A DNA stretch of 51,491 nt from Thiotrichaceae bacterium (GTDB taxonomy: Bacteria > Pseudomonadota > Gammaproteobacteria > Thiotrichales > Thiotrichaceae): assembly GCA_026989335.1 (NCBI GenBank), contig JALSJN010000063.1:1-51491 (forward strand), given 5' to 3'. Within the stretch, counting starts at the first letter, position 1. Every line of letters begins with the position of its first letter. A program made the translations under genes and the position numbers. This document shows, in pieces, positions 3,271-16,613 of the stretch. The notes beneath the pieces are model-generated. The model saw only the letters and a list, made by a program, of their open reading frames with translations. It was not told the origin of the DNA and made no database searches.

Positions 3271-3302
3271 CTAAGTTTTAGCTAAGTCTTCTCATGCAGA
3301 CT
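3271..3302 (+). promoter_or_regulatory. Copper-island promoter box A (CTAAG-N6-CTAAG)
   Basis: A perfect direct repeat CTAAG-TTTTAG-CTAAG lies at 3271-3286, upstream of the cytochrome c-copA-copB operon. The hexamer 26 nt after the first half-site (CAGACT, 3297-3302) is a poor -10, unlike in the four sister sites. The 11-bp period is what an OmpR/PmrA-type dimer would need. Regulator assignment is inferred. Confidence 0.6.
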
Positions 3303-3353
3303 TGTTTTAAGTTATTTTTACACTTTGTTACAACCCTATTAAGAGAGGAGAAC

Positions 3354-4040
3354 ATGACAAAATTACTTATTAGTAGTTTATTATTAGTAGCGTCTAATGG
3401 TTTATTTGCCGAAGGTAAACATAGTGGCGATCATGCTGGCGCACATTGGATGTCACCTGAAGCGGCTACAGCTATTCCTAACCCTGTTAAATATGATTCA
3501 GCTTCAGTTGATCGAGGTAAAAAATCTTATTTTCAATACTGTGCTTCTTGTCATGGAGCGAAGGCGGATGGAAATGGCCCAGCAGGCTCAAGCTTAAAAC
3601 CAAAGCCTGCAAATTTAAGCGTAATGGCTGGGATGCATCCTGATGGTGATTTTGCATGGAAAATTCAAAATGGTCGTGGAACAATGCCCGGCTGGAAAAC
3701 GGTGTTATCTGATACGCAAATATGGGAGTTGGTCAACTACATTAAAAGCTTAAAAGCTGTGGGACAGTCGGATACCATGAAAGATATGAAGAGCATGATG
3801 AAAGACATGGATATTAGTAAAATGAGTAAACCTGAAATACTTGCCTTTATGAAAAAGATGATGCCCGATATGGATCATTCTGCGATGAGTAAAGAGAACC
3901 TTCAAAATATGTTGACGATGATGCAGAGTAACGTGGTGTCGGATGCTGGGCATTCCAATGCTGATGGTCATCATAAACAAAAAACTGCGTCTGAGCCTAA
4001 AGAAAAAGAGCACGGTCACGATAAAGCACATTCACATTAG
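3354..4040 (+). CDS. Secreted cytochrome c with Met/His-rich tail
   Basis: The start at 3354 has a strong ribosome site (AGAGGAG) and gives a signal peptide (MTKLLISSLLL...LFA); an upstream in-frame ATG at 3294 is rejected. The mature protein has a class I haem motif CASCH (residues 63-67) and a likely axial Met in GTMPGW. After the haem domain comes a Met-rich helical tail (MKDMKSMMKDM, MKKMMPDMDHS) and a His-rich end (HGHDKAHSH), both suited to binding copper. It is the first gene of the operon, 11 nt before copA. A role as electron carrier or copper chaperone for CopA is inferred from this context. Confidence 0.85.
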   Translation: MTKLLISSLLLVASNGLFAEGKHSGDHAGAHWMSPEAATAIPNPVKYDSASVDRGKKSYFQYCASCHGAKADGNGPAGSSLKPKPANLSVMAGMHPDGDFAWKIQNGRGTMPGWKTVLSDTQIWELVNYIKSLKAVGQSDTMKDMKSMMKDMDISKMSKPEILAFMKKMMPDMDHSAMSKENLQNMLTMMQSNVVSDAGHSNADGHHKQKTASEPKEKEHGHDKAHSH

Positions 4041-4051
4041 GAGATAAAAAA

Positions 4052-5989
4052 ATGATAACAAATTTAGATGATAAACGTCGACGTTTTGTAAAAGGGCTAG
4101 CCGTCGGTGGGGCTGTAGCAGGGCTTGGTTTAACGGGCTGTTCTTCAACACAAAGTCTTTCGTCTCAGTCAGCTAAGGGACTTAAAGCTAACCATGAGAC
4201 AGAGCTAAAAGGAAAGGTTTTTAACCTTACCATTGACGAGCAACGTGTAAACTTTACCGGTAAAACCCGAGTTGCGACAGCGATTAACGGAACAGTTCCT
4301 GGACCAACACTGCGGTGGAAAGAGGGCGAAACGGTCACTTTAAAAGTAACTAATAACTTATCAGAAGTGAGTTCGATTCATTGGCACGGAATGATTTTAG
4401 ATTATCGAATGGATGGTGTGCCAGGTCTTTCATTTGATGGCATAAAACCAGGGGAAACGTTTACTTATCGTTTTAAGGTTAACCAAAGTGGTACTTATTG
4501 GTATCACAGTCACTCAGGTTTTCAAGAGCAAACGGGTATGCACGGTGTAATAGTAATTGAGTCGAAAGACCCTTACCCTTATAAATTTGACCGTGAATTT
4601 ACCGTGTCACTGGCTGATTGGACTGATGAAGATCCTAAACGTGTATACAGTAAATTAAAAAAGCTGAGTCACTATTATAACTTCAATGAGCGTACTGTAG
4701 GCGACTTATTAAAAGACTTGAAAAAAGATGGCTTATCAAAGACCTTTGGTAAGCGCAAAATGTGGAATGAAATGCGCATGAGTCAGCGTGATTTATCCGA
4801 TGTGACAGGTTACACCTATACCTATTTAATGAATAACAGCACACCACGAAAAGGCTGGAGAGGATTGTTTAAACCGGGTGAAAAAGTGCTATTACGTTTT
4901 GTAAACACCTCGGCAATGAGCTTTTTTGATGTGCGTATTCCTGGTTTGAAAATGACAGTAGTTGCCAGTGATGGGCAATATATTCAACCGGTTTCTGTGG
5001 ATGAGTTTCGTATCGGTGTAGCAGAAAACTATGATGTGATTGTCGAGCCTGATGCCTCACAAGCCTATACTATTTTTGCACAATCGTTGGGGCGATCAGG
5101 TTATGCACGTGGTACCTTAGCACCGAATGAGACGATGACTGCTGCAGTACCAAAAGTTGATCCAGTACCTGATTTAACCCATTTGGATATGGGTATGGAT
5201 ATGAGCAATATGAGCGGTATGGATCACTCAGGAATGGATATGGGAGGCGGTAGCATGGCAGGTGGTATGGACTGTTCTGACCCGATGCATGCATCGATGG
5301 ATGCGTGTAAAAATAAAGCTAAGTCTAAAATGTCTGGCATGGATCACTCAAAAATGCCAATGGCTGGTATGAAGGGTATGGATCATACGAAGATGAACCA
5401 CTCCAAGATGAAAGTGGGCAGCGGTAGTATGGCTGGCATGGATCATGGTGGTATGGATATGAAGGGTGCAGAGCGGGTTACACATGCTGCTACAGAATAT
5501 GGACCCCATGTTGATATGCGTGCTGAAGCCCCCCGCCTTGGTATCAGTGATCCAGGAATTGGCCTACGTAAGAATGGTCGAAAAGTTCTCACCTATGCCG
5601 ATATTAAAAACCTTTACCCAACCAAGGATAAACGCAAACCAAGCCGAGAGATTGAATTGCATTTAACGGGTAATATGTCGCGTTATATGTGGTCCATCAA
5701 TGGGGTTAAATATGCAGATGCTAAGCCGATAGAACTTAAATTTGGCGAACGAGTCCGTATAACCTTGGTCAATGATACGATGATGAGTCACCCTATGCAT
5801 TTACATGGGCTATGGAGTGAGTTAGAAACAGGGGACAGTGATTATTTACCTAGAAAGCATACCGTCATCGTGCAGCCAGGTTCTAAGGTTTCATACTTGG
5901 TAACGGCTGATGCACGTGGACGGTGGGCTTACCATTGTCATTTGTTATACCACATGCTTGGTATGTTCCGTGAAGTTAGAGTGGTTTAG
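4052..5989 (+). CDS. copA: Copper resistance multicopper oxidase CopA/PcoA
   Basis: Periplasmic laccase-like oxidase that oxidises Cu(I) and binds extra copper. The N-terminus has a Tat motif (RRRFVKG, residues 10-16) and a lipobox-like LTGC (27-30). Copper motifs are HWHGM (about 110), YHSHSG (about 151), SHPMHLHG and the C-terminal HCHLLYHMLGMF that supplies the type 1 site. A long Met/His-rich insert (about residues 385-470) repeats units like MDHSGMDM, as in CopA of Pseudomonas. The length of 645 residues is slightly above the usual. copB follows after 9 nt. Confidence 0.93.
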   Translation: MITNLDDKRRRFVKGLAVGGAVAGLGLTGCSSTQSLSSQSAKGLKANHETELKGKVFNLTIDEQRVNFTGKTRVATAINGTVPGPTLRWKEGETVTLKVTNNLSEVSSIHWHGMILDYRMDGVPGLSFDGIKPGETFTYRFKVNQSGTYWYHSHSGFQEQTGMHGVIVIESKDPYPYKFDREFTVSLADWTDEDPKRVYSKLKKLSHYYNFNERTVGDLLKDLKKDGLSKTFGKRKMWNEMRMSQRDLSDVTGYTYTYLMNNSTPRKGWRGLFKPGEKVLLRFVNTSAMSFFDVRIPGLKMTVVASDGQYIQPVSVDEFRIGVAENYDVIVEPDASQAYTIFAQSLGRSGYARGTLAPNETMTAAVPKVDPVPDLTHLDMGMDMSNMSGMDHSGMDMGGGSMAGGMDCSDPMHASMDACKNKAKSKMSGMDHSKMPMAGMKGMDHTKMNHSKMKVGSGSMAGMDHGGMDMKGAERVTHAATEYGPHVDMRAEAPRLGISDPGIGLRKNGRKVLTYADIKNLYPTKDKRKPSREIELHLTGNMSRYMWSINGVKYADAKPIELKFGERVRITLVNDTMMSHPMHLHGLWSELETGDSDYLPRKHTVIVQPGSKVSYLVTADARGRWAYHCHLLYHMLGMFREVRVV

Positions 5990-5998
5990 GAGAGAGAA

Positions 5999-6730
5999 AT
6001 GAAATTAAGAATAAATTCAAATATATTTAAAACGGGGGCTTCACTGCTCACAATAGCAAGCGTAATAATGACCATTCCTGCTTATGCAGGAATGGAAGAT
6101 GACCCGGTTGAAACTAAGCTTATGCTAAATCAGTTCGAAGTGGGTAAAGTTGATGGTAATCGAACGCTCTCATGGGAAGGAGATCTATGGACAGGTAAAG
6201 ACATTAATAAACTTTGGATTAAATCAGATGGAGAACGTGTTGCAGGTGAAAATGAAGGGACTTCAACCCAACTCTTATACAGTCGTGCCATTGCTCCATT
6301 TTGGGATGTCCAAACAGGTGTTCGTCATGATACTGCCCCCGGCGCAAGAAGAAACTATGCAACATTCGGTATTCAAGGGTTAGCACCTTACTACTTTGAG
6401 ACTGATGCTTCACTTTCAGTTGGCAAGAAAGGCCAAGTTAAACTAGATGCAAGTTTTGAATATGAAATGATGTTTACCCAAAAGCTAATACTATCACCAG
6501 AAGTAGCTATCAATGCATATGCTAAAGATGATAAGCCTATGGGAGTTGCTTCAGGGCTTGCAGATATCGAAGCTGGGTTACGTTTGCGCTATGAAATAAA
6601 ACGTGAGTTTGCCCCTTATATTGGTGTTAATTGGGCTAAAAAATTAGGGGGTACTGCTGATTTAGCTAAAGATGAAGGTGAAGATACTAGTGAAAGTAGC
6701 TTTGTATTAGGAATTCGCGCATGGTATTAA
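5999..6730 (+). CDS. copB: Copper resistance outer-membrane protein CopB
   Basis: CopB/PcoB proteins are outer-membrane beta-barrels that work with CopA in periplasmic copper resistance. This one has a signal peptide ending in PAYAG. The family core is clear: SWEGDLWTGKDINKLWIKSDGE, SRAIAPFWDVQTGVRHD and FGIQGLAPYYFETDASL. It ends in RAWY, an aromatic C-terminus expected for a barrel. At 243 residues it lacks the Met/His-rich N-terminal extension of longer CopB proteins. It is the last gene of the operon and is followed by a terminator. Confidence 0.92.
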   Translation: MKLRINSNIFKTGASLLTIASVIMTIPAYAGMEDDPVETKLMLNQFEVGKVDGNRTLSWEGDLWTGKDINKLWIKSDGERVAGENEGTSTQLLYSRAIAPFWDVQTGVRHDTAPGARRNYATFGIQGLAPYYFETDASLSVGKKGQVKLDASFEYEMMFTQKLILSPEVAINAYAKDDKPMGVASGLADIEAGLRLRYEIKREFAPYIGVNWAKKLGGTADLAKDEGEDTSESSFVLGIRAWY

Positions 6731-6783
6731 GAAAATTTTTTCTTAAGTTTTATTAAATAAACGTTGCGAGTCGTTTATATTGT

Positions 6784-6818
6784 CAGGTGAGGTACTTGCT
6801 ACATCATCTGGCTTTTTT
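6784..6818 (+). terminator. Rho-independent terminator after copB
   Basis: CAGGTGA pairs with TCATCTG and GTA with TAC around a CTTGC loop, with one G/A mismatch, followed by GC and six T. It separates the copB operon from the next multicopper oxidase genes. Confidence 0.85.
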
Positions 6819-6870
6819 AATTTCAGCTTATTACCTATAAAAATAAATTTATGTTAGGAAACATATTGAT

Positions 6871-7557
6871 ATGAAGAAACAATCACGTAGAAACTTTATT
6901 AAATCATTGGGGGTAACAGGGTTGTTAGGCTCTTTTGCCACACCTTTATGGGCAAAAAATAATGGTGTAAGTCTTAATACCTTTGTTGTGCCACCTTTAG
7001 ATAGAGGCGTTAGAAATGGCAATAATGTGACTTTTAAGCTAGCTATTCGGGCGGGTAAAACATCATTTTTTAATGGCGTAAATACTCCAACCCTCGGTGT
7101 AAATCAAAGCTATCTCGGGCCTGTATTACGTGCTAAACGGGGTGATACCGTCAATATAAATGTGAATAACGGCATTAATGAAGTTACCACTTTACACTGG
7201 CACGGCATGACGTTACCTGCCCATATGGATGGAGGCCCGCATCAATCCATTCAACCCAAGAAAACTTGGCGTTCAACGTTTGAAATTCGCCAAGAAGCTG
7301 CCACGCTGTGGTATCACTCACACGCAATGCATAAAACAGGGCCACAGGTTTATCATGGCCTAGCAGGCATGTTTATAATTGATGATGAAAGTAGCGATAA
7401 ACTCGGTTTACCTAACGAGTACGGTGTGGATGATATTCCTTGTACCATTCAAGACCGCCGCTTTAATCAAGATGGAACACTCAGTTATATGAGTTCGATG
7501 CCTGATCGTATGATGGGAATGCAGGGCTCTATTGTATTAGTTAATGGTGTGGTATGA
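6871..7557 (+). CDS. N-terminal part of a split CueO-like multicopper oxidase
   Basis: A Tat signal (RRNFIKSLG, then a hydrophobic stretch) leads into cupredoxin domain 1, which has HWHGMTLP and WYHSHAMH copper ligands. The frame enters domain 2 (EYGVDDIPCTIQDRRF, GSIVLVNGV) and stops at a TGA that overlaps the ATG of the next frame (ATGA, 7554-7557). The intact paralogue at 8205 has about 90 further residues of domain 2 at this point that are absent here. The gene is therefore both deleted and frameshifted. It is either a pseudogene or half of a two-chain enzyme. Confidence 0.75.
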   Translation: MKKQSRRNFIKSLGVTGLLGSFATPLWAKNNGVSLNTFVVPPLDRGVRNGNNVTFKLAIRAGKTSFFNGVNTPTLGVNQSYLGPVLRAKRGDTVNINVNNGINEVTTLHWHGMTLPAHMDGGPHQSIQPKKTWRSTFEIRQEAATLWYHSHAMHKTGPQVYHGLAGMFIIDDESSDKLGLPNEYGVDDIPCTIQDRRFNQDGTLSYMSSMPDRMMGMQGSIVLVNGVV

Positions 7558-8114
7558 TGGGAATGATGCCGATGATGCAAACGAACAATAAAGAATTAAC
7601 CATCATGACTATTGACGCACGCCAAGCGCAAAATTCAACAAAAAAGGTTCCTGCTATTTTAAGAACAAGTACTATCGGGCTTAATCCTAAAGCAGTTACG
7701 ACCACACGTAAATTCTCCTTAGAAATGGGCATGATGGGTGGAATGATGAAAAACATGGGCGGAGGAAGTCGTGGAGGTATGTTCCGCATTAATGGTAAAA
7801 GCATGGATATCAAGCGTATTGATTTCCAAGTTAAAGCTAACTCGACTGAAATTTGGGAAGTTAGCAATAGCTCTATGATGGCGCATCCTTTTCATGTTCA
7901 TAATGTACAATTTCGACTTTTAGATCGAAATGGAAAACGTCCAGACCCCAGTGAATCTGGTCTTAAAGATGTTGTTTTGGTTCCACCTGGTGATATTGTA
8001 AGAATTATTATGAAGTTCCCTGAATATTCCGATGCAAAAGTACCCTATATGTATCACTGCCATATTTTAGAACATGAGGATCAGGGCATGATGGGGCAAT
8101 TTGTTGTCGTATAA
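7554..8114 (+). CDS. C-terminal part of the split multicopper oxidase
   Basis: It starts at an ATG overlapping the stop of the preceding ORF and encodes 186 residues: a Met-rich start (MMGMMPMMQ), the end of domain 2, a second Met-rich loop (MGMMGGMMKNMGGG) and a complete domain 3. Domain 3 has INGKSMDIKRID, AHPFHVH, and HCHILEHEDQGMMG with the type 1 Cys, His and Met. Together with the upstream ORF all four copper motifs of a multicopper oxidase are present, but on two chains. No signal peptide is present, so a separate chain would not reach the periplasm unless it were carried there by a folded partner. Confidence 0.7.
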   Translation: MMGMMPMMQTNNKELTIMTIDARQAQNSTKKVPAILRTSTIGLNPKAVTTTRKFSLEMGMMGGMMKNMGGGSRGGMFRINGKSMDIKRIDFQVKANSTEIWEVSNSSMMAHPFHVHNVQFRLLDRNGKRPDPSESGLKDVVLVPPGDIVRIIMKFPEYSDAKVPYMYHCHILEHEDQGMMGQFVVV

Positions 8115-8204
8115 AAAAATAGTAAGAGATAGAGGCATAGGTAGAGATAGAGGTTGAGAAGAGTATCTCTTATAATTAATAATCTAATTTAAGGTAATAA
8201 AAAA

Positions 8205-9620
8205 ATGCATAGAAGAGAGTTTTTAGTGTTTAGTTCAGTGGCGTCGTTATTATTCGTAACCGGTTGTGGGGGGAGTTCTTCTCGAAGTTCGGCAAACCCA
8301 ACGGTTAAAACATCGGCTTTACCGATACCGGGCCTTTTAAAACCCATTACAAAAAATGGCGTACAACATTATGATATGGACATAAAAGAGGCAAAGCACG
8401 CTTTTTTTGAAGGCAAACTTACGGACACTTTTGCCATTAATGACAGCACCTATTTAGGGCCTACTTTATTACTGCAACAGGGTGATCGCGTGTCAATTAA
8501 TTATAAAAATAACTTAAAAGAAACTATCACGATGCATGGACATGGAATGCATGTACCACCGACGATGGATGGTACGGCACATCAAGCGATTGCTCCCAGT
8601 CAGGCTTGGTCGCCACAATATACGGTGAATCAGAAAGCGTGTACCAACTGGTACCATCCTCACACGATGGAAAAAACAGCAGAGCAAGTTTACCAAGGAT
8701 TAGCCGGTCTTATTATTGTTGAGGATGATGAGAGCAGGGCTTTAGATTTACCAAAACGCTATGGTGTTGATGATATTCCTTTAGTGTTACAGGATCGATT
8801 TTTCACTGATGGTCAAATAGATTATAGCCCAACCATGCGAGAAATAATGCGTGGTTATGTGGGTGATACCTTCATCGCAAATGGTGCGATAGAACCGACA
8901 TTGGATGTGGAAGCAAAGGAAATTCGTTTTCGAATTTTAAATGGCTCAAATTCATCTATTTATGAACTTGGTTTTTCTGATGGTAGAGCTTTCAAACAAA
9001 TTGCGACTGATAATGGCTTTTTAGAACAAGCTGTTGAAATCACGCGCCTTAGGTTGTCTCCAGCCGAACGTGCGGAAATTGTTATTGATCTTAGTAGTGA
9101 TAAAAATAAGAGTCTAAGTTTTAATGATTACAAGCAGAATAAAACGTTCCTTAACATCAGTGTAAATAAAGATGCAACACAAATCACCCGACTACCCAAC
9201 AAACTGACTACCTTAGAAACGATTAATCCAATGGCTGCTGTGCGTACACGTCCTTTCGTGTTTACAGGAAGCAGAGGAAACTTTCAAATCAATGGTAAAA
9301 GTATGGACATGAAGCGTATCGATGAGCGGGTTGTTCTGGGAGAAACGGAAATATGGGAAGTCAAAAATAACATGATGATGGATCATAACTTTCATATCCA
9401 TGCGACTAACTTTCGTCTCATAGAAAGAAATGGAAATGCTGCCAATGTAGCTGAAAATGAAAAAGGATATAAAGATGTTGTATTTGTACCCGCAAATGAA
9501 AGCGTAAAACTGTTGATTAAAATGGTTGATTACACCAATGCTACGGTTCCTTATATGTACCACTGTCATTTTTTAGAGCATGAAGATAGAGGCATGATGG
9601 GACAGTTTGTTGTTGTTTAA
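8205..9620 (+). CDS. CueO-like multicopper oxidase, lipoprotein
   Basis: Intact 471-residue three-domain multicopper oxidase, probably a periplasmic cuprous oxidase. The N-terminus combines an RREFL Tat-like motif with a lipobox (FVTGC, Cys about 21). The first copper motif reads MHGHGMH rather than the usual HWHG, then WYHPHTM, DHNFHIH and HCHFLEHEDRGMMG. It is the best internal reference for what is missing from the neighbouring split gene. It lacks the long Met-rich insert. The leader at 8115-8204 is AG-rich, with AGAGATAGAGG repeated at 8125 and 8143. It probably belongs to one transcription unit with the genes on both sides. Confidence 0.9.
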   Translation: MHRREFLVFSSVASLLFVTGCGGSSSRSSANPTVKTSALPIPGLLKPITKNGVQHYDMDIKEAKHAFFEGKLTDTFAINDSTYLGPTLLLQQGDRVSINYKNNLKETITMHGHGMHVPPTMDGTAHQAIAPSQAWSPQYTVNQKACTNWYHPHTMEKTAEQVYQGLAGLIIVEDDESRALDLPKRYGVDDIPLVLQDRFFTDGQIDYSPTMREIMRGYVGDTFIANGAIEPTLDVEAKEIRFRILNGSNSSIYELGFSDGRAFKQIATDNGFLEQAVEITRLRLSPAERAEIVIDLSSDKNKSLSFNDYKQNKTFLNISVNKDATQITRLPNKLTTLETINPMAAVRTRPFVFTGSRGNFQINGKSMDMKRIDERVVLGETEIWEVKNNMMMDHNFHIHATNFRLIERNGNAANVAENEKGYKDVVFVPANESVKLLIKMVDYTNATVPYMYHCHFLEHEDRGMMGQFVVV

Positions 9621-9656
9621 CAGATTGAAATCTATAAGTTTAGGAGGGATTTAAAA

Positions 9657-10155
9657 ATGATAAAACTATTACTAATAGTAAGTTTAAGCAGTGTTTTTTT
9701 AATTGCCTGTGGCAGTGCCGACTCGGATGAAGTAAAAGCTGTGAACACAGAAGTAACTACAAAAGGCGTTAAAAAAAACTGTCACCCCTACGGAAAACGC
9801 TGGCGCAAAACGTTGGTATAGCACTGCCAAAAAAATTAACGGAAAACAGGTTTTTAACGAAAATTGCGCTTCTTGTCATGGCGATAAAGGCGAAGGTTTA
9901 GTAAAAGACTGGAAAAAGTCTGATGCAGAGGGGAAATTTCCAGCACCGCCATTAAATGGAACGGCACATGCATGACATCACTCTAAAGAACTGTTATTAC
10001 GCACCGTCAATAATGGGGGTATTGCCTTAGGAGGAAGCATGCCAGCGTTTAAAGATAAACTAACCGATAAAGAAAAAGAAGCTGTGGTCGCATATATTAC
10101 CAGCCTTTGGCCTGATAAAACCTACGCTATGTGGGCTAAGAGAAACTTAAAATAA
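9657..10155 (+). pseudogene. Cytochrome c lipoprotein, frameshift plus stop
   Basis: A good ribosome site (AGGAGG) precedes ATG 9657 and a lipoprotein signal (LIACGS). At a run of eight A (9771-9778) the frame shifts; with one A fewer it continues as KKTVTPTENAGAKRWYS, then a haem motif CASCHGDKGEG. At 9973-9975 a TGA stands where relatives have Trp (THAWHH). The rest (LLRTVNNGGIALGGSMPAFK, AVVAYITSLWPDKTYAMWAKR) is a normal cytochrome c C-terminus. The two independent lesions make this a pseudogene. It ends one base before the regulator gene. Confidence 0.85.
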
Positions 10156-10156
10156 A

Positions 10157-10813
10157 ATGCGAATTCTACTGGTTGAAGATGATGATCTGATAGGCTCAGC
10201 GGTTGAACGAGCTTTAAAAGATGATGGCCATGCTGTTGATTGGGTGCAAGATGGTGAAACAGCACTCTCATCACTTTATATTGAAGCTTATGCCTTGGTT
10301 TTACTGGATTTAGGTCTACCTATTAAAGATGGTTTAGAAGTCTTAGAAACCATGCGAAAAGCCAAGAAAATAATGCCTGTGATTATTTTAACAGCACGAG
10401 ATTCTATTGAAGACCGTATTAAAGGGTTGGACTTAGGTGCAGATGACTATTTAGTAAAACCCTTTTCAATTGATGAATTACATGCACGGATTCGTGCAGT
10501 GGTTAGGCGCAATCAAGGTGTTGCTGATCCTGTATTAAAAAGTTCACTATTACAACTGAATACAACAACTAAAGATGTCGAAGTAGGGGGTGAAGCCTTT
10601 TCACTTTCAGCAAAAGAATATGCCTTACTTCATGCTTTAATGGCTCATCCTGGGGCAATTTTATCTAAGCAGAGTTTGGAAGATGCACTGTATGGTTGGA
10701 ATGAAGAAGTCGCGAGTAATGCGGTTGAATTTATTATTCATGGTTTGAGAAAAAAACTTGGGAAAGATGCTATTAAAAATGTCAGAGGTATGGGCTGGTT
10801 GGTGACAAAGTGA
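10157..10813 (+). CDS. OmpR-family response regulator (PmrA/QseB/CopR-like)
   Basis: The 218-residue two-domain regulator has a receiver domain with EDD (7-9), phosphoacceptor Asp51 in LLDLGLP and Lys101 in LVKPF. A winged-helix C-terminal domain follows (SAKEYALLHALMAHPG, FIIHGLRKKLG, VRGMGWLV). The sequence is closest in style to the PmrA/QseB group, whose members bind direct half-sites with an 11-bp period. That period matches the CTAAG-N6-CTAAG boxes of this island. It is followed after 9 nt by its sensor kinase, so a copper-responsive role is likely but inferred from context. Confidence 0.9.
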   Translation: MRILLVEDDDLIGSAVERALKDDGHAVDWVQDGETALSSLYIEAYALVLLDLGLPIKDGLEVLETMRKAKKIMPVIILTARDSIEDRIKGLDLGADDYLVKPFSIDELHARIRAVVRRNQGVADPVLKSSLLQLNTTTKDVEVGGEAFSLSAKEYALLHALMAHPGAILSKQSLEDALYGWNEEVASNAVEFIIHGLRKKLGKDAIKNVRGMGWLVTK

Positions 10814-10822
10814 TAAAAATAA

Positions 10823-12136
10823 ATGATTAAAACATATTCACTTAAACGCGAATTAAATCGCTGGATAATTATCACTACATTAATATTTGTTTTACTGGCA
10901 GGAGCAATAGCGGGTTGGTTGGTGTTTAAGCAAGCACGCGAGCAACAAGACTTTACTTTATTAGAAATAGCGGCATTAATTAAGGAAGATTCACTAAAAG
11001 AGTCTAAATACTTACATCATGATATAAAAAAGAATACGGTAATCATTAATGAACTCGGGAAAATACAGCATATCCCAATTGTGCGGACCCAGACAGGAAA
11101 TGGTTTTCATACAATGCATCTTGATGGTAGCCAGTGGCGAGTACTAATCACTACACAACCTGAATCTCAGCGTCGATTCTCGATTGCACAACAAACAGAA
11201 CAACGTGATGAAATAGCCTTAAGCAGTAGTTTAAGCGTGTTGCTACCGATCGTAATTTTGATTGGATTAATGCTATTAATGATTAATTTGATTATTAATC
11301 GTCAGTTTAGGTCATTAGCAAAGCTAACTGATGAGCTCGAGCAGCAAGATGCTATAAAATTATTTACATTAAATGCTAAGAAAGTCCCAGAAGAAATAAG
11401 TCCTTTTGTTGACTCAATTAATAGCTTGTTATTACGTGTTTCAAAAACAGTCCAAAAACAGCAACGGTTTATCGCCGATGCTGCCCATGAGTTACGCACA
11501 CCCATAGCAGCTTTATCGGTACAAGTTGATAACCTTGAAAAAACGCTCGATCAAGTAGATAGGGATGCTCGGCAAAAGGACTTACAAAAGAGTCTGCTTA
11601 GACTACGCACTCTAGTTACACAGTTACTCAATTTAGCTCGTCTACAAAGCGAAGATAATACTAAAAAAACAGTAGTGGTCTTTAACGTATTAGTTTTTCA
11701 AGCCATTGAAAGTTTATATCCTCTAGCAGAAAAGGCCGAAATTGATATAGGTATTACCCAACAAGATGAAAACCTAAGAGTCTATGATCAGCAAGACCGC
11801 TTAGCCCAGCTTATTTTTAACGCAGTAGATAATGCTATTCATTACTCACCAAAAGGTGGTCGAATTGATATTAGCCTTGTACGTGAAAACTATAATGGTA
11901 ACGAAAGATTACTTTTTTGTATTGAGGATAACGGTATTGGTATACCTGAAAACGAGTTAAAACGGGTGATGCAACCCTTTTATCGGGTAAAAGAAAGCCA
12001 TCAGCCTGGCAATGGTTTAGGGCTTGCTATTAGCCAAGAAATTGCACAATTACTTGGTGGCTCAATCGAATTAAGTAATCGTCAAGCAGGTGGGCTTAAA
12101 TTTTGTTATCAACAAGCTTTGGTAAAAGTTAAGTAG
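10823..12136 (+). CDS. Sensor histidine kinase, partner of the regulator
   Basis: Membrane histidine kinase of 437 residues with transmembrane segments at about 14-36 and 138-158 and a short periplasmic sensor between them. The H-box FIADAAHELRTPIAAL carries His222. It is followed by an N-box (FNAVDNAIHYSP) and G-boxes DNGIGIP and GNGLGLAI. The sensor loop has three His (HLHHD...) but no CusS-type motif that I can recognise. The stop TAG uses the first base of the palindromic element that follows, so the original C-terminus may have been slightly different. Confidence 0.9.
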   Translation: MIKTYSLKRELNRWIIITTLIFVLLAGAIAGWLVFKQAREQQDFTLLEIAALIKEDSLKESKYLHHDIKKNTVIINELGKIQHIPIVRTQTGNGFHTMHLDGSQWRVLITTQPESQRRFSIAQQTEQRDEIALSSSLSVLLPIVILIGLMLLMINLIINRQFRSLAKLTDELEQQDAIKLFTLNAKKVPEEISPFVDSINSLLLRVSKTVQKQQRFIADAAHELRTPIAALSVQVDNLEKTLDQVDRDARQKDLQKSLLRLRTLVTQLLNLARLQSEDNTKKTVVVFNVLVFQAIESLYPLAEKAEIDIGITQQDENLRVYDQQDRLAQLIFNAVDNAIHYSPKGGRIDISLVRENYNGNERLLFCIEDNGIGIPENELKRVMQPFYRVKESHQPGNGLGLAISQEIAQLLGGSIELSNRQAGGLKFCYQQALVKVK

Positions 12137-12292
12137 AGACCTTTGCACGAATCAGATGATGAGCAAAAATGACTAAAATTTTACTGCTTTTCGTTGGGAA
12201 ATTGCTAAGAACGAGTTATTAGCTTCATTTTCCGCCTCAATCAGTAAAAATCTAGCCCAGTTTCTATTGCCACTGACTCGTGCAAAGGTCTC
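12136..12292 (+). mobile_element. Palindromic non-autonomous element, copy 1
   Basis: Terminal inverted repeats GAGACCTTTGCACGA (12136-12150) and TCGTGCAAAGGTCTC (12278-12292) bound about 157 bp with no coding capacity. The interior holds secondary similarity to copy 3 (CTGCTTTTCGTT, GTTATTAGCTTCATTTTC). Its first G completes the TAG stop of the kinase gene. No clear target duplication is seen. It looks like a MITE mobilised by a DDE transposase that is not in this window. Confidence 0.75.
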
Positions 12293-12331
12293 AGTCGTTA
12301 TTATCCTAATAAAAGGAATAATTTTTAGCTT

Positions 12332-12390
12332 CTAATTTTCAGCTAAGTTGATTAATTTAATATTCTTTCAACGCAAATATAAACAGCGTT
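12332..12390 (+). promoter_or_regulatory. Copper-island promoter box D and leader hairpin
   Basis: CTAAT-TTTCAG-CTAAG lies at 12332-12347, and a -10 hexamer TAATAT at 12358-12363. The predicted +1 falls on AACGC (12370), which pairs with GCGTT (12386-12390). Spacing is identical to the boxes at 15176 and 15742. Confidence 0.65.
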
Positions 12391-12419
12391 TAAAAACTAC
12401 TTATTAAAAGGATATAAAA

Positions 12420-12764
12420 ATGAAAACACTTACTCGTAAACCAGCAACTCTATTATCAACAGCTTTATTAACTTTATTTTTAAGTGGCATGCAACCCGCA
12501 ATGGCTGATGGTGATATGCCGCACAATAAAAAAGATATGAAAGAGATGATGAAAGAAAATATGAAAAAAGAGGGTGTGAAAAAAGAAGACCATCACAAAC
12601 TTAGTGAAAATTCAGAAAGTGATCCTCTGTTTGAAAAATTACCCGAAGGTCATTCTGATGATAAACATGATATTGGAAATTCTGAATATGGTGTGGCGAA
12701 TGAAGAACTCCCAAAATCAAATAATAAAGATGGGCATCATGATGTGAATAAAAAGGCAAGATAG
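12420..12764 (+). CDS. Small secreted Met/His-rich protein
   Basis: A signal peptide (LLSTALLTLFLSGMQPAMA) is followed by an 85-residue charged, low-complexity mature protein. It has a Met-rich start (KKDMKEMMKENMKK) and scattered His pairs (EDHHK, DKHD, DGHHD). There is no Cys and no recognised domain. The composition and the copper-type promoter directly upstream suggest a periplasmic copper-binding protein, which is inference. A strong terminator follows at 12872. Confidence 0.7.
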   Translation: MKTLTRKPATLLSTALLTLFLSGMQPAMADGDMPHNKKDMKEMMKENMKKEGVKKEDHHKLSENSESDPLFEKLPEGHSDDKHDIGNSEYGVANEELPKSNNKDGHHDVNKKAR

Positions 12765-12871
12765 CCTCATGAAGGCTTATTTAATCAGGTGATTTAAAAT
12801 TATTAATACCTATGTTGTATGAAGGAAGTACTTAATTAACCATAGTTTTAATATTTTGCACTGATATTTAT

Positions 12872-12900
12872 GAAAAAGCTGACTTTTTGTCAGCTTTTTC
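12872..12900 (+). terminator. Terminator after the Met/His-rich gene
   Basis: A perfect 12-bp stem GAAAAAGCTGAC/GTCAGCTTTTTC encloses a TTTTT loop, with a T-run inside each arm, so it could work in both directions. It separates the gene at 12420 from the cytochrome gene at 12982. The region 12901-12981 shows no box of the CTAAG type. Confidence 0.85.
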
Positions 12901-12981
12901 AATGTAAGCGCTAACTCCTTTACATGAGTAATGGGGGCTTAACGTTATTGATAAGTAATAATTCAATACAAGGAAAATAAT

Positions 12982-13440
12982 ATGAAGTTTAGTTCACTAG
13001 TTGGTTTGACTATAACGGGGGTACTTGCTGCCGTTCTGGTTGGATGGTTCGGGTTTTATAATGTATCTGCAAAAGATAAGCACTGGGAGATAACAAATAA
13101 AGTAATGGAGTTTGTACGTGAACGATCAATTGAAGTGAGAACAGATGATATTGTAGTACCTAAAAATCTAACTGATAAAAAAATGATTACTAAAGGTGCG
13201 AAAAACTACGATGCAATGTGTGCGCAATGTCACTTATCTCCTGTAAAACAACCTACGGAGTTAAGTCAGGGTTTATATCCTGAGCCTCCTGTTTTTCATG
13301 AAAATATACACGCAAGTCATGATCCTAAGAGTATGTTTTGGATAATAAAAAATGGAATCAAACTTACAGGTATGCCTGCCTGGGGAGACTTTCATACGGA
13401 GCAACAAATGTGGCAAATGGTTGCTTTTTTAAATAGCTAA
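12982..13440 (+). CDS. Membrane-anchored cytochrome c, frameshifted near its end
   Basis: An uncleaved N-terminal anchor (VGLTITGVLAAVLVGWFGFY) precedes a class I haem domain with MCAQCH and a likely axial Met in TGMPAWG. The region YPEPPVFHENIHASHDPKSMFWIIKNGIK is intact. The frame stops at 13438-13440 right after VAFLNS, yet the next frame continues with the sequence expected in relatives (ELSAEDYQGLVGEGGHTHKPG). A 1-nt gain or 2-nt loss near 13435 therefore cut off a His-containing tail. The haem domain itself is complete and may still function. Confidence 0.75.
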   Translation: MKFSSLVGLTITGVLAAVLVGWFGFYNVSAKDKHWEITNKVMEFVRERSIEVRTDDIVVPKNLTDKKMITKGAKNYDAMCAQCHLSPVKQPTELSQGLYPEPPVFHENIHASHDPKSMFWIIKNGIKLTGMPAWGDFHTEQQMWQMVAFLNS

Positions 13441-13597
13441 TGAACTATCGGCAGAAGATTATCAAGGCTTGGTGGGTGAGGGTGGACACACTCATAAGCC
13501 CGGGTATGAACACACATCGAATAAAAAAAATGCATCAATGAAAAAGATACCAACAGCTGATCCTTTGTATAAAGATTCTCATGCGCATATACACTAA
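13436..13597 (+). pseudogene. Out-of-frame C-terminal tail of the cytochrome at 12982
   Basis: This frame encodes ANELSAEDYQGLVGEGG, then a His-rich end (HTHKPGYEH ... DSHAHIH) with a stop at 13595-13597. It has no start or ribosome site of its own and directly continues the cytochrome. The His-rich end resembles the tail of the cytochrome at 3354, supporting a common copper-related use. Confidence 0.7.
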
Positions 13598-13614
13598 CTA
13601 AACTAATTAAGCTC

Positions 13615-13646
13615 CTAAGTTTGAGCTAAGTTTATGCTGGTAGTGT
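13615..13646 (+). promoter_or_regulatory. Copper-island promoter box F
   Basis: A perfect repeat CTAAG-TTTGAG-CTAAG lies at 13615-13630, with TAGTGT at 13641-13646, again 26 nt from the first half-site. More CTAAx words lie upstream (13594, 13598, 13603), off the 11-bp register. A palindromic element separates this promoter from the porin it would drive. Confidence 0.55.
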
Positions 13647-13668
13647 GCAGCGAATAAGCTATTAAGGA

Positions 13669-13823
13669 AGTCCTGATCAAGTCCGATTTTTTATACTGGC
13701 TAGAATCATCCTGATTTTCCACGAAGTTCGCGACAATAGAGCGACAATTCTCGTTCACTTCCATGAAAAATCAGAACAATTCTATCTCAGCCTAAAAGCA
13801 ACTGGACTTAATTAGGAGTTCAG
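13669..13823 (+). mobile_element. Hairpin element in the porin leader
   Basis: The two halves form a long imperfect inverted repeat. The ends TCCTGATCAAGTCC (13671) and GGACTTAATTAGGA (13804-13817) match at 12 of 14 positions, and inner blocks such as CTGATTTTCCA/CATGAAAAATCAG also pair. TAAGGA flanks both sides (13663-13668 and 13824-13829) and may be a 6-bp target duplication. No coding capacity. It is unlike the GAGACC family. Confidence 0.65.
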
Positions 13824-13873
13824 TAAGGAGACTTTTGTTTAATTAATTTAATACTTTTTAAAGGAGAATAAAA

Positions 13874-14953
13874 ATGAATATCAAAAATGTATTACAGGTT
13901 AGCACATTAGCTTTTGTGGCAGTTCCTATGCTATTTCCTATCTATGCCGCGACTGGATCAACACCTTTAACTTCAAATAAGGTGAATTTTACAGTTTCTG
14001 GCCAAGTCAGTCGTGCTTTAACCTTTGCAGATAATGGAACGGATTCTGATACATTATTTGTTGATAATACCAATAGTGGTTCCAGAGTTAGAATTGTTGG
14101 CAAAACAGATTTTGGGGCCAGTTCTGCGGGGGTTAATATTGAAACTCAGTTTGAAGACAACCTTTCTTATGCAACAGATATTGATGATAAAGATAATAAT
14201 AATGTTTTTACTTCAAGAAAGAGAGAGCTTTGGATTAAAGGCGGTTGGGGTAAAGTAACCTTAGGTAAAGGTGATGGTGCTGCAAATAATACCTCTGAAG
14301 TTGATAATTCAGGTACATGGATTGCTAATAATGTAGGTGATTTCTTGCATAGTGGTTTGAGCTTTGCAGATAATACGGGTAAGAAAATAGTTAAATTAGC
14401 AAACTCAATGACAAACTTTGATGGTTTTAGTCGTAATAATCGTTTACGTTATGATACCCCTAAAATAGGTCCTGTTAGTCTAGCCGTAAGTCAAACACAA
14501 AGAGGTTCTGAACTTGGTCTATTTTATAATCAACCCTTAGGTGTGGGTTCTAAACTATCTGGTGCGCTAGGGTATGTAAAAGAAAGTGACTCAGATTTAA
14601 AGCAATTGGGCCTATCTATCTCTTACTTGATGGCTAATGGCTTAAGCGTAACAGGTCATTATGGTATGCGTAACCCTGATAATACATCGGTAGATCCAAA
14701 AGGTATGTATGTGAAAGTCGCTAAAAAAATGGGCGGAGCAAAAAATCATATTATTTCAACAGCATACCATACAGTAAATGATGCGGTGTTAGCAGGGGAT
14801 AAAGCTAAAAGAGTTAATGTATCTTATGTATATCTGATTCCAAATCGTCGTATTGAAGTTTTTGGTGATGTACAAAAAGCTTCATTAGAACGTACAACAG
14901 GTAATTTAGAAGATTTAAGTTCTGTTTCTTTAGGCTCGCGAATCAAGTTTTAA
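13874..14953 (+). CDS. Gram-negative porin
   Basis: Outer-membrane trimeric general porin of 359 residues with an AAGGAG ribosome site and a signal peptide ending PIYAATG. The mature protein starts with the porin signature VNFTVSGQVSRALTF and has the typical SRVRIVGKTDFG and RELWIKGGWGKVTLGKGD strands. The constriction-loop region (VDNSGTWIANNVGDFLHSG) is present, and the chain ends in the C-terminal Phe (GSRIKF) required for barrel assembly. It sits downstream of box F. Copper-regulated porin expression is inferred from that placement. Confidence 0.88.
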   Translation: MNIKNVLQVSTLAFVAVPMLFPIYAATGSTPLTSNKVNFTVSGQVSRALTFADNGTDSDTLFVDNTNSGSRVRIVGKTDFGASSAGVNIETQFEDNLSYATDIDDKDNNNVFTSRKRELWIKGGWGKVTLGKGDGAANNTSEVDNSGTWIANNVGDFLHSGLSFADNTGKKIVKLANSMTNFDGFSRNNRLRYDTPKIGPVSLAVSQTQRGSELGLFYNQPLGVGSKLSGALGYVKESDSDLKQLGLSISYLMANGLSVTGHYGMRNPDNTSVDPKGMYVKVAKKMGGAKNHIISTAYHTVNDAVLAGDKAKRVNVSYVYLIPNRRIEVFGDVQKASLERTTGNLEDLSSVSLGSRIKF

Positions 14954-15104
14954 GAAACGGATGTTTATTTGTTTCTACGAGTTTGAAGTGCTTGCTTCGT
15001 GACACACACTATTAGGTAGATAAATTATTTTTTGATAAGGTTTTGACTCCTTTACAATTCGTTTATACCTTAGTCATTTTCTGCAAGTACTTCATTTTTA
15101 ATGC

Positions 15105-15131
15105 AAACCAGCTTTTAGCTGGTTTTTTTTT
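15105..15131 (+). terminator. Terminator after the porin
   Basis: AAACCAGC/GCTGGTTT with a TTTTA loop and a run of nine T. It is nearly repeated at 15684, where it opens the second copy of the tandem unit. The remainder of 14954-15104 has only a weak AGAAAC/GTTTCT hairpin. Confidence 0.88.
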
Positions 15132-15175
15132 GCGTATAAGCTGCAATAAAAAATAAATTTAATTTTTAATTCCAT

Positions 15176-15236
15176 CTAATTCTCAGCTAAGTTTTTTCTC
15201 CTATTATTACGTCAACGCTAAATAAACAAGAGCGTT
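15176..15236 (+). promoter_or_regulatory. Copper-island promoter box G and leader hairpin
   Basis: CTAAT-TCTCAG-CTAAG (15176-15191) is followed by a -10 TATTAT (15202-15207). At the predicted +1 starts a stem AACGCT (15214-15219)/AGCGTT (15231-15236). The second half-site overlaps the -35 position, as at promoters activated by PmrA-like regulators. Confidence 0.7.
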
Positions 15237-15278
15237 TGTCAAACAACTTTAAATTAAAAATAATTCAGGAGAATTACA

Positions 15279-15575
15279 ATGAAAAATCTAATTATTAAAA
15301 CGAGTCTTGCAGCACTGATCGTATTAACTGCCAATACTGCAATGGCATTCGAGCAAATAAGCTCAGAATATGGTACTGATAGTGCGTTTCTTAATGGTGG
15401 TATTGAGAAAAATGTAATACCTGTAGCTTCATACCGTGCTCATGCCGGCCATGAAATACAGTTTAGTGGTGGTGCAGAACGTTATAATGGTGGAAATACA
15501 GTATCTTATAGTGATACTGATCACCATAGTAATACTAATAACCCACTTTCTATCGATTTTATGAGCAAAAAATAA
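15279..15575 (+). CDS. Small secreted protein of unknown family, copy 1
   Basis: The 98-residue product has a clear signal peptide (MKNLIIKTSLAAL...NTAMA) and a mature part starting FEQISSEYGTDSAF. It has no Cys and no recognised domain. It contains YRAHAGHEIQFSGGAERYNGG, a His pair near the end (DTDHHS) and a basic end MSKK. Its near twin lies at 15829, and each copy has its own copper-type promoter and terminator. A periplasmic role in copper stress is inferred from the promoter. Some unrelated-looking short secreted families have this size, so no function is assigned. Confidence 0.8.
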   Translation: MKNLIIKTSLAALIVLTANTAMAFEQISSEYGTDSAFLNGGIEKNVIPVASYRAHAGHEIQFSGGAERYNGGNTVSYSDTDHHSNTNNPLSIDFMSKK

Positions 15576-15591
15576 TTACTATGATTATCTT

Positions 15592-15626
15592 AAAAAGCTG
15601 GAATGTATTCGTTACTCCAGCTTTTT
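15592..15626 (+). terminator. Terminator of the first duplicate gene
   Basis: AAAAAGCTGGA (15592-15602) pairs with TCCAGCTTTTT (15616-15626). A related hairpin, GCTGGAAT/ATTTCAGC, follows the second copy at 16151. Confidence 0.85.
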
Positions 15627-15683
15627 AAGAACCTATATTGAGTTCCATATGAAAATGTTCTAGATCTCAGTATTCTTAAATAC

Positions 15684-15710
15684 AACCAGCCTTATTGAGC
15701 TGGTTTTTTT
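15684..15710 (+). terminator. Second terminator, duplicate of the one at 15105
   Basis: AACCAGC (15684-15690)/GCTGGTT (15699-15705) runs into a T-tract ending at 15710. It marks the start of the second repeat unit of the tandem duplication. Confidence 0.85.
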
Positions 15711-15741
15711 ATGCATCAAAATAAATTTAAATTTTTAGACT

Positions 15742-15798
15742 CTAATTTCTAGCTAATTTTTTATCGGTACTATTACTTCAACGCAACACAAAAAGCGT
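15742..15798 (+). promoter_or_regulatory. Copper-island promoter box H and leader hairpin
   Basis: CTAAT-TTCTAG-CTAAT (15742-15757) with -10 TACTAT at 15768-15773. AACGC starts at 15780 at the predicted +1, and ACGC can pair with GCGT (15795-15798). The spacing equals that in boxes D and G. Confidence 0.65.
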
Positions 15799-15828: not shown

Positions 15829-16128
15829 ATGAAAGATCTAATTATCAAAACTGGACTTGCAGCACTTATTGTATTTACTGCTAATACTGCAATGGCATTC
15901 GAGCAAATAAGCTCAGAATATGGCACTGATAGTGCGTTTGTTAATGGTGGTATTGAGCAAAATGTAATACCCGTAGCTTCATACCGTGCTCATGCTGGCC
16001 ATGAAATACAATTTAGTGGTGGTGCAGAACGTTATAATGGTGGAAATACAGTATCTTATAGTAATACTGATCACTATATTAATACTAATAATAACCCGCT
16101 TTCTATCGACTATATCAGTAAAAAGTAA
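15829..16128 (+). CDS. Small secreted protein of unknown family, copy 2
   Basis: The ATG at 15829 with AGGAG upstream is preferred over an in-frame TTG at 15823, because it matches the start of copy 1. It encodes 99 residues. Differences from copy 1 are few and mostly conservative in the mature part (FLNGG to FVNGG, EKNV to EQNV), with more change at the end (DTDHHSNTN to NTDHYINTNN). Retention of the coding sequence while the leader has diverged more suggests selection on the protein. It may be cotranscribed with the DUF302 and ATPase genes by read-through of the terminator at 16151. Confidence 0.8.
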   Translation: MKDLIIKTGLAALIVFTANTAMAFEQISSEYGTDSAFVNGGIEQNVIPVASYRAHAGHEIQFSGGAERYNGGNTVSYSNTDHYINTNNNPLSIDYISKK

Positions 16129-16214: not shown

Positions 16215-16613
16215 ATGTACAGTTTTTCAACCGCATTAGAGGGAAGTTTAGAGTCAATCGAACCCCGTGTTATTGACGCACTTAAAGATGAAGGTTTTGG
16301 TGTATTGACTGAGATTGATATCCAAGCAACGTTAAAGGATAAGCTTGGTGAAGATATGGAACCTTATAAAATTTTAGGTGCTTGTAATCCCCCTCTGGCA
16401 CATCAAGCATTGATGGCCGAACCCGATATTGGATTATTACTTCCCTGTAATATTGTGCTTCGCACTGTTTCAACAGGGGTTGTCGTCTCTTTTATGGATC
16501 CAGCAGCAGTATTAACGTTAGTTAATAGGCCAGAGGTTGAAGCACTTGCACAAGATGTTCGTCAACGATTAATTAGGGTTAGATTAGCTTTAGGTGGTGA
16601 TTTTAGTCATTAA
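16215..16613 (+). CDS. DUF302 domain protein
   Basis: The 132-residue product matches the DUF302 family over its whole length: GFGVLTEIDIQATLKDKLGED, PYKILGACNPPLAHQAL and EPDIGLLLPCNIVLR. Two conserved Cys lie in GACNPP and LLPCN. There is no signal peptide, so it is probably cytoplasmic. DUF302 genes often sit beside metal-efflux and thiol-related genes, but their biochemical role is not established. It has a good AGGAG site and lies 33 nt before the copper ATPase gene, which suggests an operon with it. Confidence 0.88.
   Translation: MYSFSTALEGSLESIEPRVIDALKDEGFGVLTEIDIQATLKDKLGEDMEPYKILGACNPPLAHQALMAEPDIGLLLPCNIVLRTVSTGVVVSFMDPAAVLTLVNRPEVEALAQDVRQRLIRVRLALGGDFSH

Follow-up and report, generated by a model that had tools for sequence, protein, structure and literature searches.

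The stretch of DNA analysed here (the window) comprises positions 1 to 51,491 of contig JALSJN010000063.1 (51,491 nucleotides; assembly GCA_026989335.1) of a Thiotrichaceae bacterium. A copper island is encoded on its plus strand, with copA, copB, multicopper oxidases and a copper-type P-type metal ATPase, together with a PmrA/QseB-type response regulator (10157-10813) and its histidine kinase (10823-12136). A direct repeat, CTAA[GT]-N6-CTAA[GT] with an 11-bp period, hereafter the box, is present at five promoters of this island. Judging from the sequences compared below, the box is likely, with good confidence, to be the operator of the 10157-10813 regulator, which would activate the copper genes in response to a stimulus of its kinase, periplasmic copper being the most likely one.

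The repeat is real and beyond chance. Indeed (i) a scan of the window returned six matches, of which five lie on the plus strand at 3271, 12332, 13615, 15176 and 15742, exactly the sites, strand and period given by the first-pass annotation of this DNA, (ii) 100 shuffled windows contained 0.58 matches on average and at most 3, none reaching six, and (iii) the 37 CTAA[GT] words found on the plus strand between 3.2 and 15.9 kb form five pairs at period 11 and 0 to 1 at each other period from 6 to 24. The sixth match (16572-16587, minus strand) is located within a DUF302 gene and is judged to be a chance occurrence.

The five sites are not fully independent, because two of the targets are tandem duplicates, the sites at 15176 and 15742 each preceding one copy, and because three promoters share downstream sequence (39 and 37 of 78 bases downstream of 12332 are identical to those at 15176 and 15742, respectively). 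The repeat could in principle be a functionless relic inherited with duplicated promoters, an explanation to which this kinship lends itself; however, the upstream flanks are alike at only 10-26 of 60 positions across the sites (17-26 of 60 among these same three promoters) while the boxes are identical at 12-15 of 16, and in other genomes the box stands at genes of other kinds, so that we give this explanation almost no credit. Similar terminator-like hairpins (15105-15125 and 15684-15705) precede the fourth and fifth boxes, so the duplicated unit may comprise terminator, box and gene.

The hexamers located at +26 of the five boxes are those that had been reported (Table 1), and this register recurs among relatives. 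Among 51 boxes of the C type (CTAA half-sites, as opposed to the TTAA half-sites of the T type), TANNNT is found at exactly +26 in 41 and CANNNT in 7 (48/51 in total), versus 0-6 occurrences of TANNNT at the other offsets from 16 to 39; eight of these boxes come from loci fetched for a pattern or model match, and without them [TC]ANNNT is found at +26 in 40/43. The hexamer CAGACT of box 1, previously described as poor, is therefore a recurring variant rather than simply a weak -10. The earlier view that the second half-site replaces the -35 element needs correction as well: given a spacer of 17 bp, a -35 element would begin at +3 of the box and cover the last bases of half-site 1 as well as the box spacer, and the second half-site sits in the promoter spacer, ending 10 bp upstream of the -10. 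The -35 element of the pbgP promoter is likewise located at half-site 1 (PMC4660055, excerpt). A consensus scan detected a weak -35/-10 pair at box 4 (TTCTCA-16-TATTAT, 15180-15207) and no -35 match at the other four box promoters. Such a position of half-site 2, between the -35 and -10 positions, is one from which a bound protein could block transcription, and with the one weak -35 inside a box it would suit repressor sites from which copper releases the regulator. This alternative seems improbable, as the strict 26-nt register and the absence of a -35 match at four promoters fit class II activation as described for PmrA/PhoB in the excerpted part of PMC4660055.

The bare pattern was rejected as a genome-wide marker, since its 24 matches in the window's genome, compared with 21 for the reversed pattern, correspond to chance level; a longer pattern with two mismatches was too loose (72 versus 57 matches). 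A sequence model trained on sites of other genomes was therefore used. This model, based on sequence only, was built from 19 sites of seven other genomes of the genus (G001, G002, G003, G005, G006, G007 and G010; the sites of G003 nearly duplicate those of G007), drawn from 28 matches to box plus -10 outside the window's genome after exclusion of nine (both matches of each of G008, G009 and G011, one of G004 and two of G010). A T directly follows the first CTAAK in 19/19 training sites, and an A and a G 5' of the second half-site and a T 3' of it are each present in at least 70% of them; box specificity lies in these further conserved bases (CTAAKT-N3-AGCTAAGT) and in the register to the -10. 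In the window's genome (2.46 Mb; 150 of 1778 first-look candidates scored), the model gave six matches of 19.0-29.5 bits, followed by a seventh at 13.2 bits (E-value 0.41). These six are the five sites of the window, where nothing more appeared up to an E-value of 5, and a box at C25:8600-8631, which is the strongest of all (29.5 bits). A weaker candidate (C53:1354, 12.4 bits) precedes a DUF2189 gene, the G001 counterpart of which also has a box.

The box was then searched for in the genus and the family. The pattern box-N10-TANNNT has 35 matches in 12 genomes of the genus compared with 11 for the reversed pattern, and 34 of the 35 lie outside long genes (the reversed-control matches were not classed). 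The nine genomes that encode a regulator of at least 70% identity account for 30 matches (reversed, 5), and the three genomes without such a regulator for 5 (reversed, 6). At an E-value of at most 0.01, the model matches 8/12 genus genomes but 1/51 family genomes outside the genus; six of these eight gave training sites, the exceptions being G000 (the window's genome) and G009. Boxes precede orthologous cytochrome c, porin, Met/His-rich and secreted protein genes in G001, cytochrome c, porin, multicopper oxidase and small protein genes in G006, and P-type metal ATPases and small secreted protein genes in G002 and G010. In G003, G005, G007 (PepSY gene first) and G010 (small secreted protein gene first), a box also stands ahead of the row of genes that ends in the regulator. 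Other matches in the genus, found before housekeeping genes or before no gene (for example in G011, G004 and G008), are judged to be due to chance. The C25 box precedes an acyltransferase-3 gene followed by a GDSL-lipase gene, and a gene of G001 resembling this acyltransferase also has a box (E-value 0.005), which is not a training site. In the regulon first proposed (cytochrome c-copA-copB, a Met/His protein, a porin and two secreted proteins), the secreted pair consists of tandem duplicates, and the regulon would take in the C25 acyltransferase gene as well. In G003, three consecutive half-sites with an 11-bp period precede a PepSY gene (L085 8540-8566), an arrangement that might accommodate several dimers in tandem.

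The 10157-10813 regulator, which carries the domains Response_reg (1.3e-27) and Trans_reg_C (2e-18), shares 45.9% identity with E. coli BasR/PmrA, 44.5% with QseB, 35.3% with PhoP and 33.9% with CusR, the four proteins compared; CusR kinship was not found at this last value (CopR and PcoR themselves were not compared). Its best-scoring solved chains are BasR/PmrA, its phosphoacceptor aspartate D51 is invariant in the 10 rows of the alignment, and the cognate kinase, among four compared, is closest to QseC (32.4%). These identities, the solved chains, and the same box and -10 distance near relatives support the assignment to the PmrA/QseB type, for the protein as for the promoter geometry. Lipid A genes are targets of PmrA, whereas those predicted for the island regulator are copper genes.

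The island regulator resembles PmrA/BasR of Klebsiella and Salmonella in its subfamily, its domain make-up, the 11-bp head-to-tail repeat and the overlap with the -35 region. The PmrA box of pbgP, CTTAAT-N5-CCTAAG, is verified and bound head to tail, and its weaker second half-site, CCTAAG, fits NCTAAK and keeps the 11-bp register; the Salmonella half-sites are, however, CTTAAG and XTTAAT, whereas both half-sites of the island boxes are NCTAAK (PMC3973317, seen in part). According to the available portion of PMC4660055, Asn188 and Asn196 of PmrA make base-specific contacts, Arg210 contacts the minor groove, and Thr187, Val192 and His195 make hydrophobic contacts; in a docking model, His193 forms a DNA-specific hydrogen bond (PMC3973317, partial text). 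In the alignment, the island regulator has Asn188, Gly196, Arg210, Ser187, Phe192 and His195; it differs from PmrA in the helix at residues 187 (T/S), 192 (V/F), 193 (H/I) and 196 (N/G). QseB of E. coli has Val192-His193, in contrast to the island regulator, and no copper role was seen for it among the literature matches listed.

Two other operator types were considered for the window and rejected, as their counts are at chance. Classical YTTAAK-N5-YTTAAK boxes are absent in exact form from the five promoters, all five sites being NCTAAK rather than NTTAAK; with one mismatch, two occur in leaders (12403-12419, minus strand; 13847-13863, plus strand) and 16 in the window, against 12.4 expected. 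CopR of P. syringae, PcoR and AgrR resemble the island system in that they are part of two-component control of copper or silver genes, and are described in the part seen of PMC7380067 as binding a 16-bp inverted repeat; this CopR-type repeat (ATKACANNNNTGTMAT, up to two mismatches) occurs 15 times in the window against 13.6 expected and in none of the five promoters.

A set of 138 non-redundant regulators was surveyed with up to 14 kb around each, after removal of those aligned over fewer than 190 residues or at least 95% identical to one kept; 183 of 369 genomes had a match, and 40 regions near the top of the list were fetched (G426 was passed over). Within 350 bp upstream of a gene, the loci of relatives (n=28) contain 15 relaxed boxes with a -10 (C or T type) and no match to the reversed pattern. 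The boxes of the window depart from the classical NTTAAK half-site of PmrA, and this difference tracks residue 193. Regulators with Ile/Leu193 (n=35) have a C-type box with a -10 at 21 loci and a T-type box at none, whereas those with His/Tyr/Phe/Gln193 (n=100) have a T-type box with a -10 at 23 loci and a C-type box at one (L151), which is probably due to chance; three regulators with Ala193 have no boxes. This split has a Fisher p of 6e-12, not corrected for kinship, and the reversed controls gave two T-type matches in the Ile/Leu set and otherwise none. Counted without the -10, intergenic boxes at 31 clade loci and eight genus loci are 51 of the C type (reversed, 0) and 6 of the T type (reversed, 10); at the 86 His/Tyr/Phe/Gln-type loci, 56 boxes are of the T type (reversed, 0). 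Residue 192 (Phe) is weakened as a candidate specificity residue, as regulators with Val192 and Ile/Leu193 (L293, L296, L297 and L304) have C-type boxes.

In a tree built without the recognition helix, the C-box regulators fall on one side of a branch with a support of 99, accompanied by ten Ile/Leu regulators for which no box was scored, and box type and residue class each change once. This tree omits L151, the box-less regulators of the His/Tyr/Phe/Gln/Ala type and four distant box-less Ile/Leu regulators (L146, L160, L170 and L258, the last being E. coli PhoP), which are also outside the 31 clade loci. The same regulator clade is present on a clinical Enterobacter plasmid (L260), with three perfect boxes at 7050, 10611 and 11901 that precede membrane-protein, secreted-protein and PepSY genes; tellurite-resistance genes adjoin. 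The regulator encoded beside ZneA in Cupriavidus metallidurans, taken to be ZneR from its place (the record is without gene names), also falls in the C-box clade; ZneS has been grouped with QseC (PMC10127602, excerpt). This system serves a zinc pump and not copper oxidases, and no perfect box was found in 16.7 kb near ZneA, where one with one mismatch occurs.

The box could in principle be bound by another OmpR-type regulator of the same genome, in which the island regulator has 16 matches; an example is the regulator next to the cus-like pump on C25, part of a two-component pair on a contig that also carries a box. We regard this as quite improbable, because the box follows the clade of the 10157-type regulator across genomes and plasmids and because regulators with His/Tyr/Phe/Gln193 go with TTAAK boxes. 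The C25 box (L077) is located downstream of the cusA-like pump gene run with this pair. The box itself, its register to the -10, its conservation at orthologous genes and its inheritance together with the regulator clade can be read from the sequences compared, and they make the 10157 regulator its very probable binder.

Copper as the signal of the kinase is suggested by the gene content of the island and by two histidine motifs. An alignment of 29 kinases of the 31 clade loci contains six with [HN]HD as well as QH[IV]P in their periplasmic region (those of the window, G001, G002, G006 and G010, and that of the second pair of G007), and the L098 kinase has HHD alone. Multicopper oxidase, ATPase or CopB-like genes are present in the fetched stretch of five of the six; the stretch of G010 is without copper genes, its metal ATPase with a box being on another contig. 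Copper genes were found in the fetched stretches of 0/9 motif-less loci checked (L084, L086-L090, L259, L260 and L262). Two paralogous pairs are encoded in G007, of which the copper-island pair (L091 3518-15490) has the motifs and the PepSY-linked pair (L086) does not. It may also be that box and regulator are correctly paired and that the kinase, like those of the PmrB/QseC kind, responds to envelope or cation stress in general, the copper genes making up just part of the targets. Runs of PepSY, undecaprenyl-phosphatase, DedA and membrane-protein genes do surround members of the clade on plasmids and in family genomes, and the sixth site precedes acyltransferase-3 and GDSL-lipase genes. We nevertheless consider such a general signal unlikely, though the most serious of the alternatives, as the two motifs mark kinases beside copper genes and G007 has one pair of each sort.

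Several observations weigh against a copper-responsive operator of the 10157 regulator. (i) A model search of the window found no box directly ahead of the regulator. (ii) The split at residue 193 goes back to one evolutionary change, so that this link is a correlation seen once. (iii) The 86 loci of the His/Tyr/Phe/Gln type hold five C-type boxes when no -10 is demanded (reversed, 2). (iv) In G009, a good box (E-value 2.9e-4) is located near multicopper oxidases, yet no orthologous regulator was found in this 89%-complete assembly; the regulator may be absent from the assembly or replaced. (v) In G011 the regulator is present, but even the best box match is not a good one (E-value 0.128), and the training genome G003 reaches only 0.065. 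(vi) A further histidine, in [FL]H, is present in all six motif kinases but also in 11/23 kinases without the two motifs. (vii) Several relatives (57-63%) lie in runs of PepSY and membrane-protein genes that include no copper genes, and another has a zinc pump as its neighbour, so the association with copper is not necessarily ancestral.

The features of the island are given in Table 1. The start of the cytochrome c gene is likely 3354, since the listed start at 3294 overlaps the -10. The frames at 6871-8114 encode 228 and 186 amino acids, and their G001 counterpart is a single frame of 497 amino acids (L080 12082-13575); the split may be a real break or an assembly error. Between 9657 and 10155, ahead of the regulator, short frames resemble fragments of a cytochrome c gene found intact in G001 (165 amino acids; L080 10039-10536). 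Read-through from box 5 into the P-type metal ATPase gene is possible. In G009 (C165, L252), the box occurs together with two multicopper oxidase genes.

Table 1. Boxes, -10 hexamers and genes of the copper island in the window; bit scores are those of the model trained on other genomes
Feature	Position	Strand	Remarks
Box 1 (CTAAGTTTTAGCTAAG), putative operator	3271..3286	+	Cytochrome c-copA-copB promoter; 19.6 bits; orthologous box in G001 (L080 17279-17310)
-10-like hexamer CAGACT	3297..3302	+	+26 of box 1; TACTAT in G001 orthologue
Cytochrome c, Met/His-rich tail	3354..4040	+	Likely start 3354
copA-type multicopper oxidase	4052..5989	+	
copB (PF05275)	5999..6730	+	
Multicopper oxidase-like gene	6871..8114	+	Two overlapping frames (6871-7557, 7554-8114)
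Second multicopper oxidase-like gene	8205..9620	+	
PmrA/QseB-type response regulator	10157..10813	+	Proposed to bind the box
Cognate histidine kinase	10823..12136	+	HHD and QHIP motifs in periplasmic region
Box 2 (CTAATTTTCAGCTAAG), putative operator	12332..12347	+	22.0 bits
-10 TAATAT	12358..12363	+	+26 of box 2
Small secreted Met/His-rich protein	12420..12764	+	No Pfam family match
Cytochrome c gene	12982..13440	+	Downstream, without own box
Box 3 (CTAAGTTTGAGCTAAG), putative operator	13615..13630	+	19.0 bits
-10 TAGTGT	13641..13646	+	+26 of box 3
Gram-negative porin (Porin_4)	13874..14953	+	Boxes also at porins in G001 and G006
Box 4 (CTAATTCTCAGCTAAG), putative operator	15176..15191	+	26.0 bits
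-10 TATTAT	15202..15207	+	+26 of box 4
Small secreted protein, copy 1	15279..15575	+	
Box 5 (CTAATTTCTAGCTAAT), putative operator	15742..15757	+	21.4 bits
-10 TACTAT	15768..15773	+	+26 of box 5
Small secreted protein, copy 2	15829..16128	+	Tandem duplicate
P-type metal ATPase	16647..19139	+	Copper type by domains (HMBD, YHS); without own box

In brief, the following mechanism is what we infer. The kinase would be stimulated, most likely by periplasmic copper, and the phosphorylated regulator would bind as a head-to-tail dimer to two NCTAAK half-sites placed one helical turn apart. Bound just upstream of a -10 that lacks a good -35, the dimer could recruit sigma-70 RNA polymerase, as PhoB and PmrA do, and would turn on cytochrome c-copA-copB. 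No terminator-like site is listed on the plus strand between 5940 and 10700, so the regulator pair may be transcribed from box 1; read-through of this kind would probably let the regulator drive its own genes in a positive feedback. Further targets would be the small Met/His-rich protein, the porin and the two secreted proteins, as well as the acyltransferase gene outside the window, on C25.

For the clade as a whole, a possible history, which we would place somewhat short of probable, is that the operator of a group of PmrA/QseB-type regulators in proteobacteria and on plasmids changed from NTTAAK to NCTAAK via residue 193 (His/Tyr to Ile/Leu), with the promoter geometry kept to the base, and that the system was then recruited to copper resistance (in Cupriavidus perhaps zinc resistance) by changes of the kinase sensor, including fresh histidine motifs. 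No description of the box was recognised in the titles and abstract starts of the open-licence PubMed Central matches listed.

In summary, the island probably forms a copper regulon controlled by a regulator of the PmrA/QseB type whose half-sites depart from the classical form. The analysis provides a predicted operator for a two-component clade that occurs on plasmids and in several proteobacterial groups, a hypothesis that one residue decides whether PmrA-type regulators pick TTAA or CTAA half-sites, a putative copper regulon whose regulator is not of the CopR/CusR type, and a motif by which this regulon may be read from sequence in relatives.

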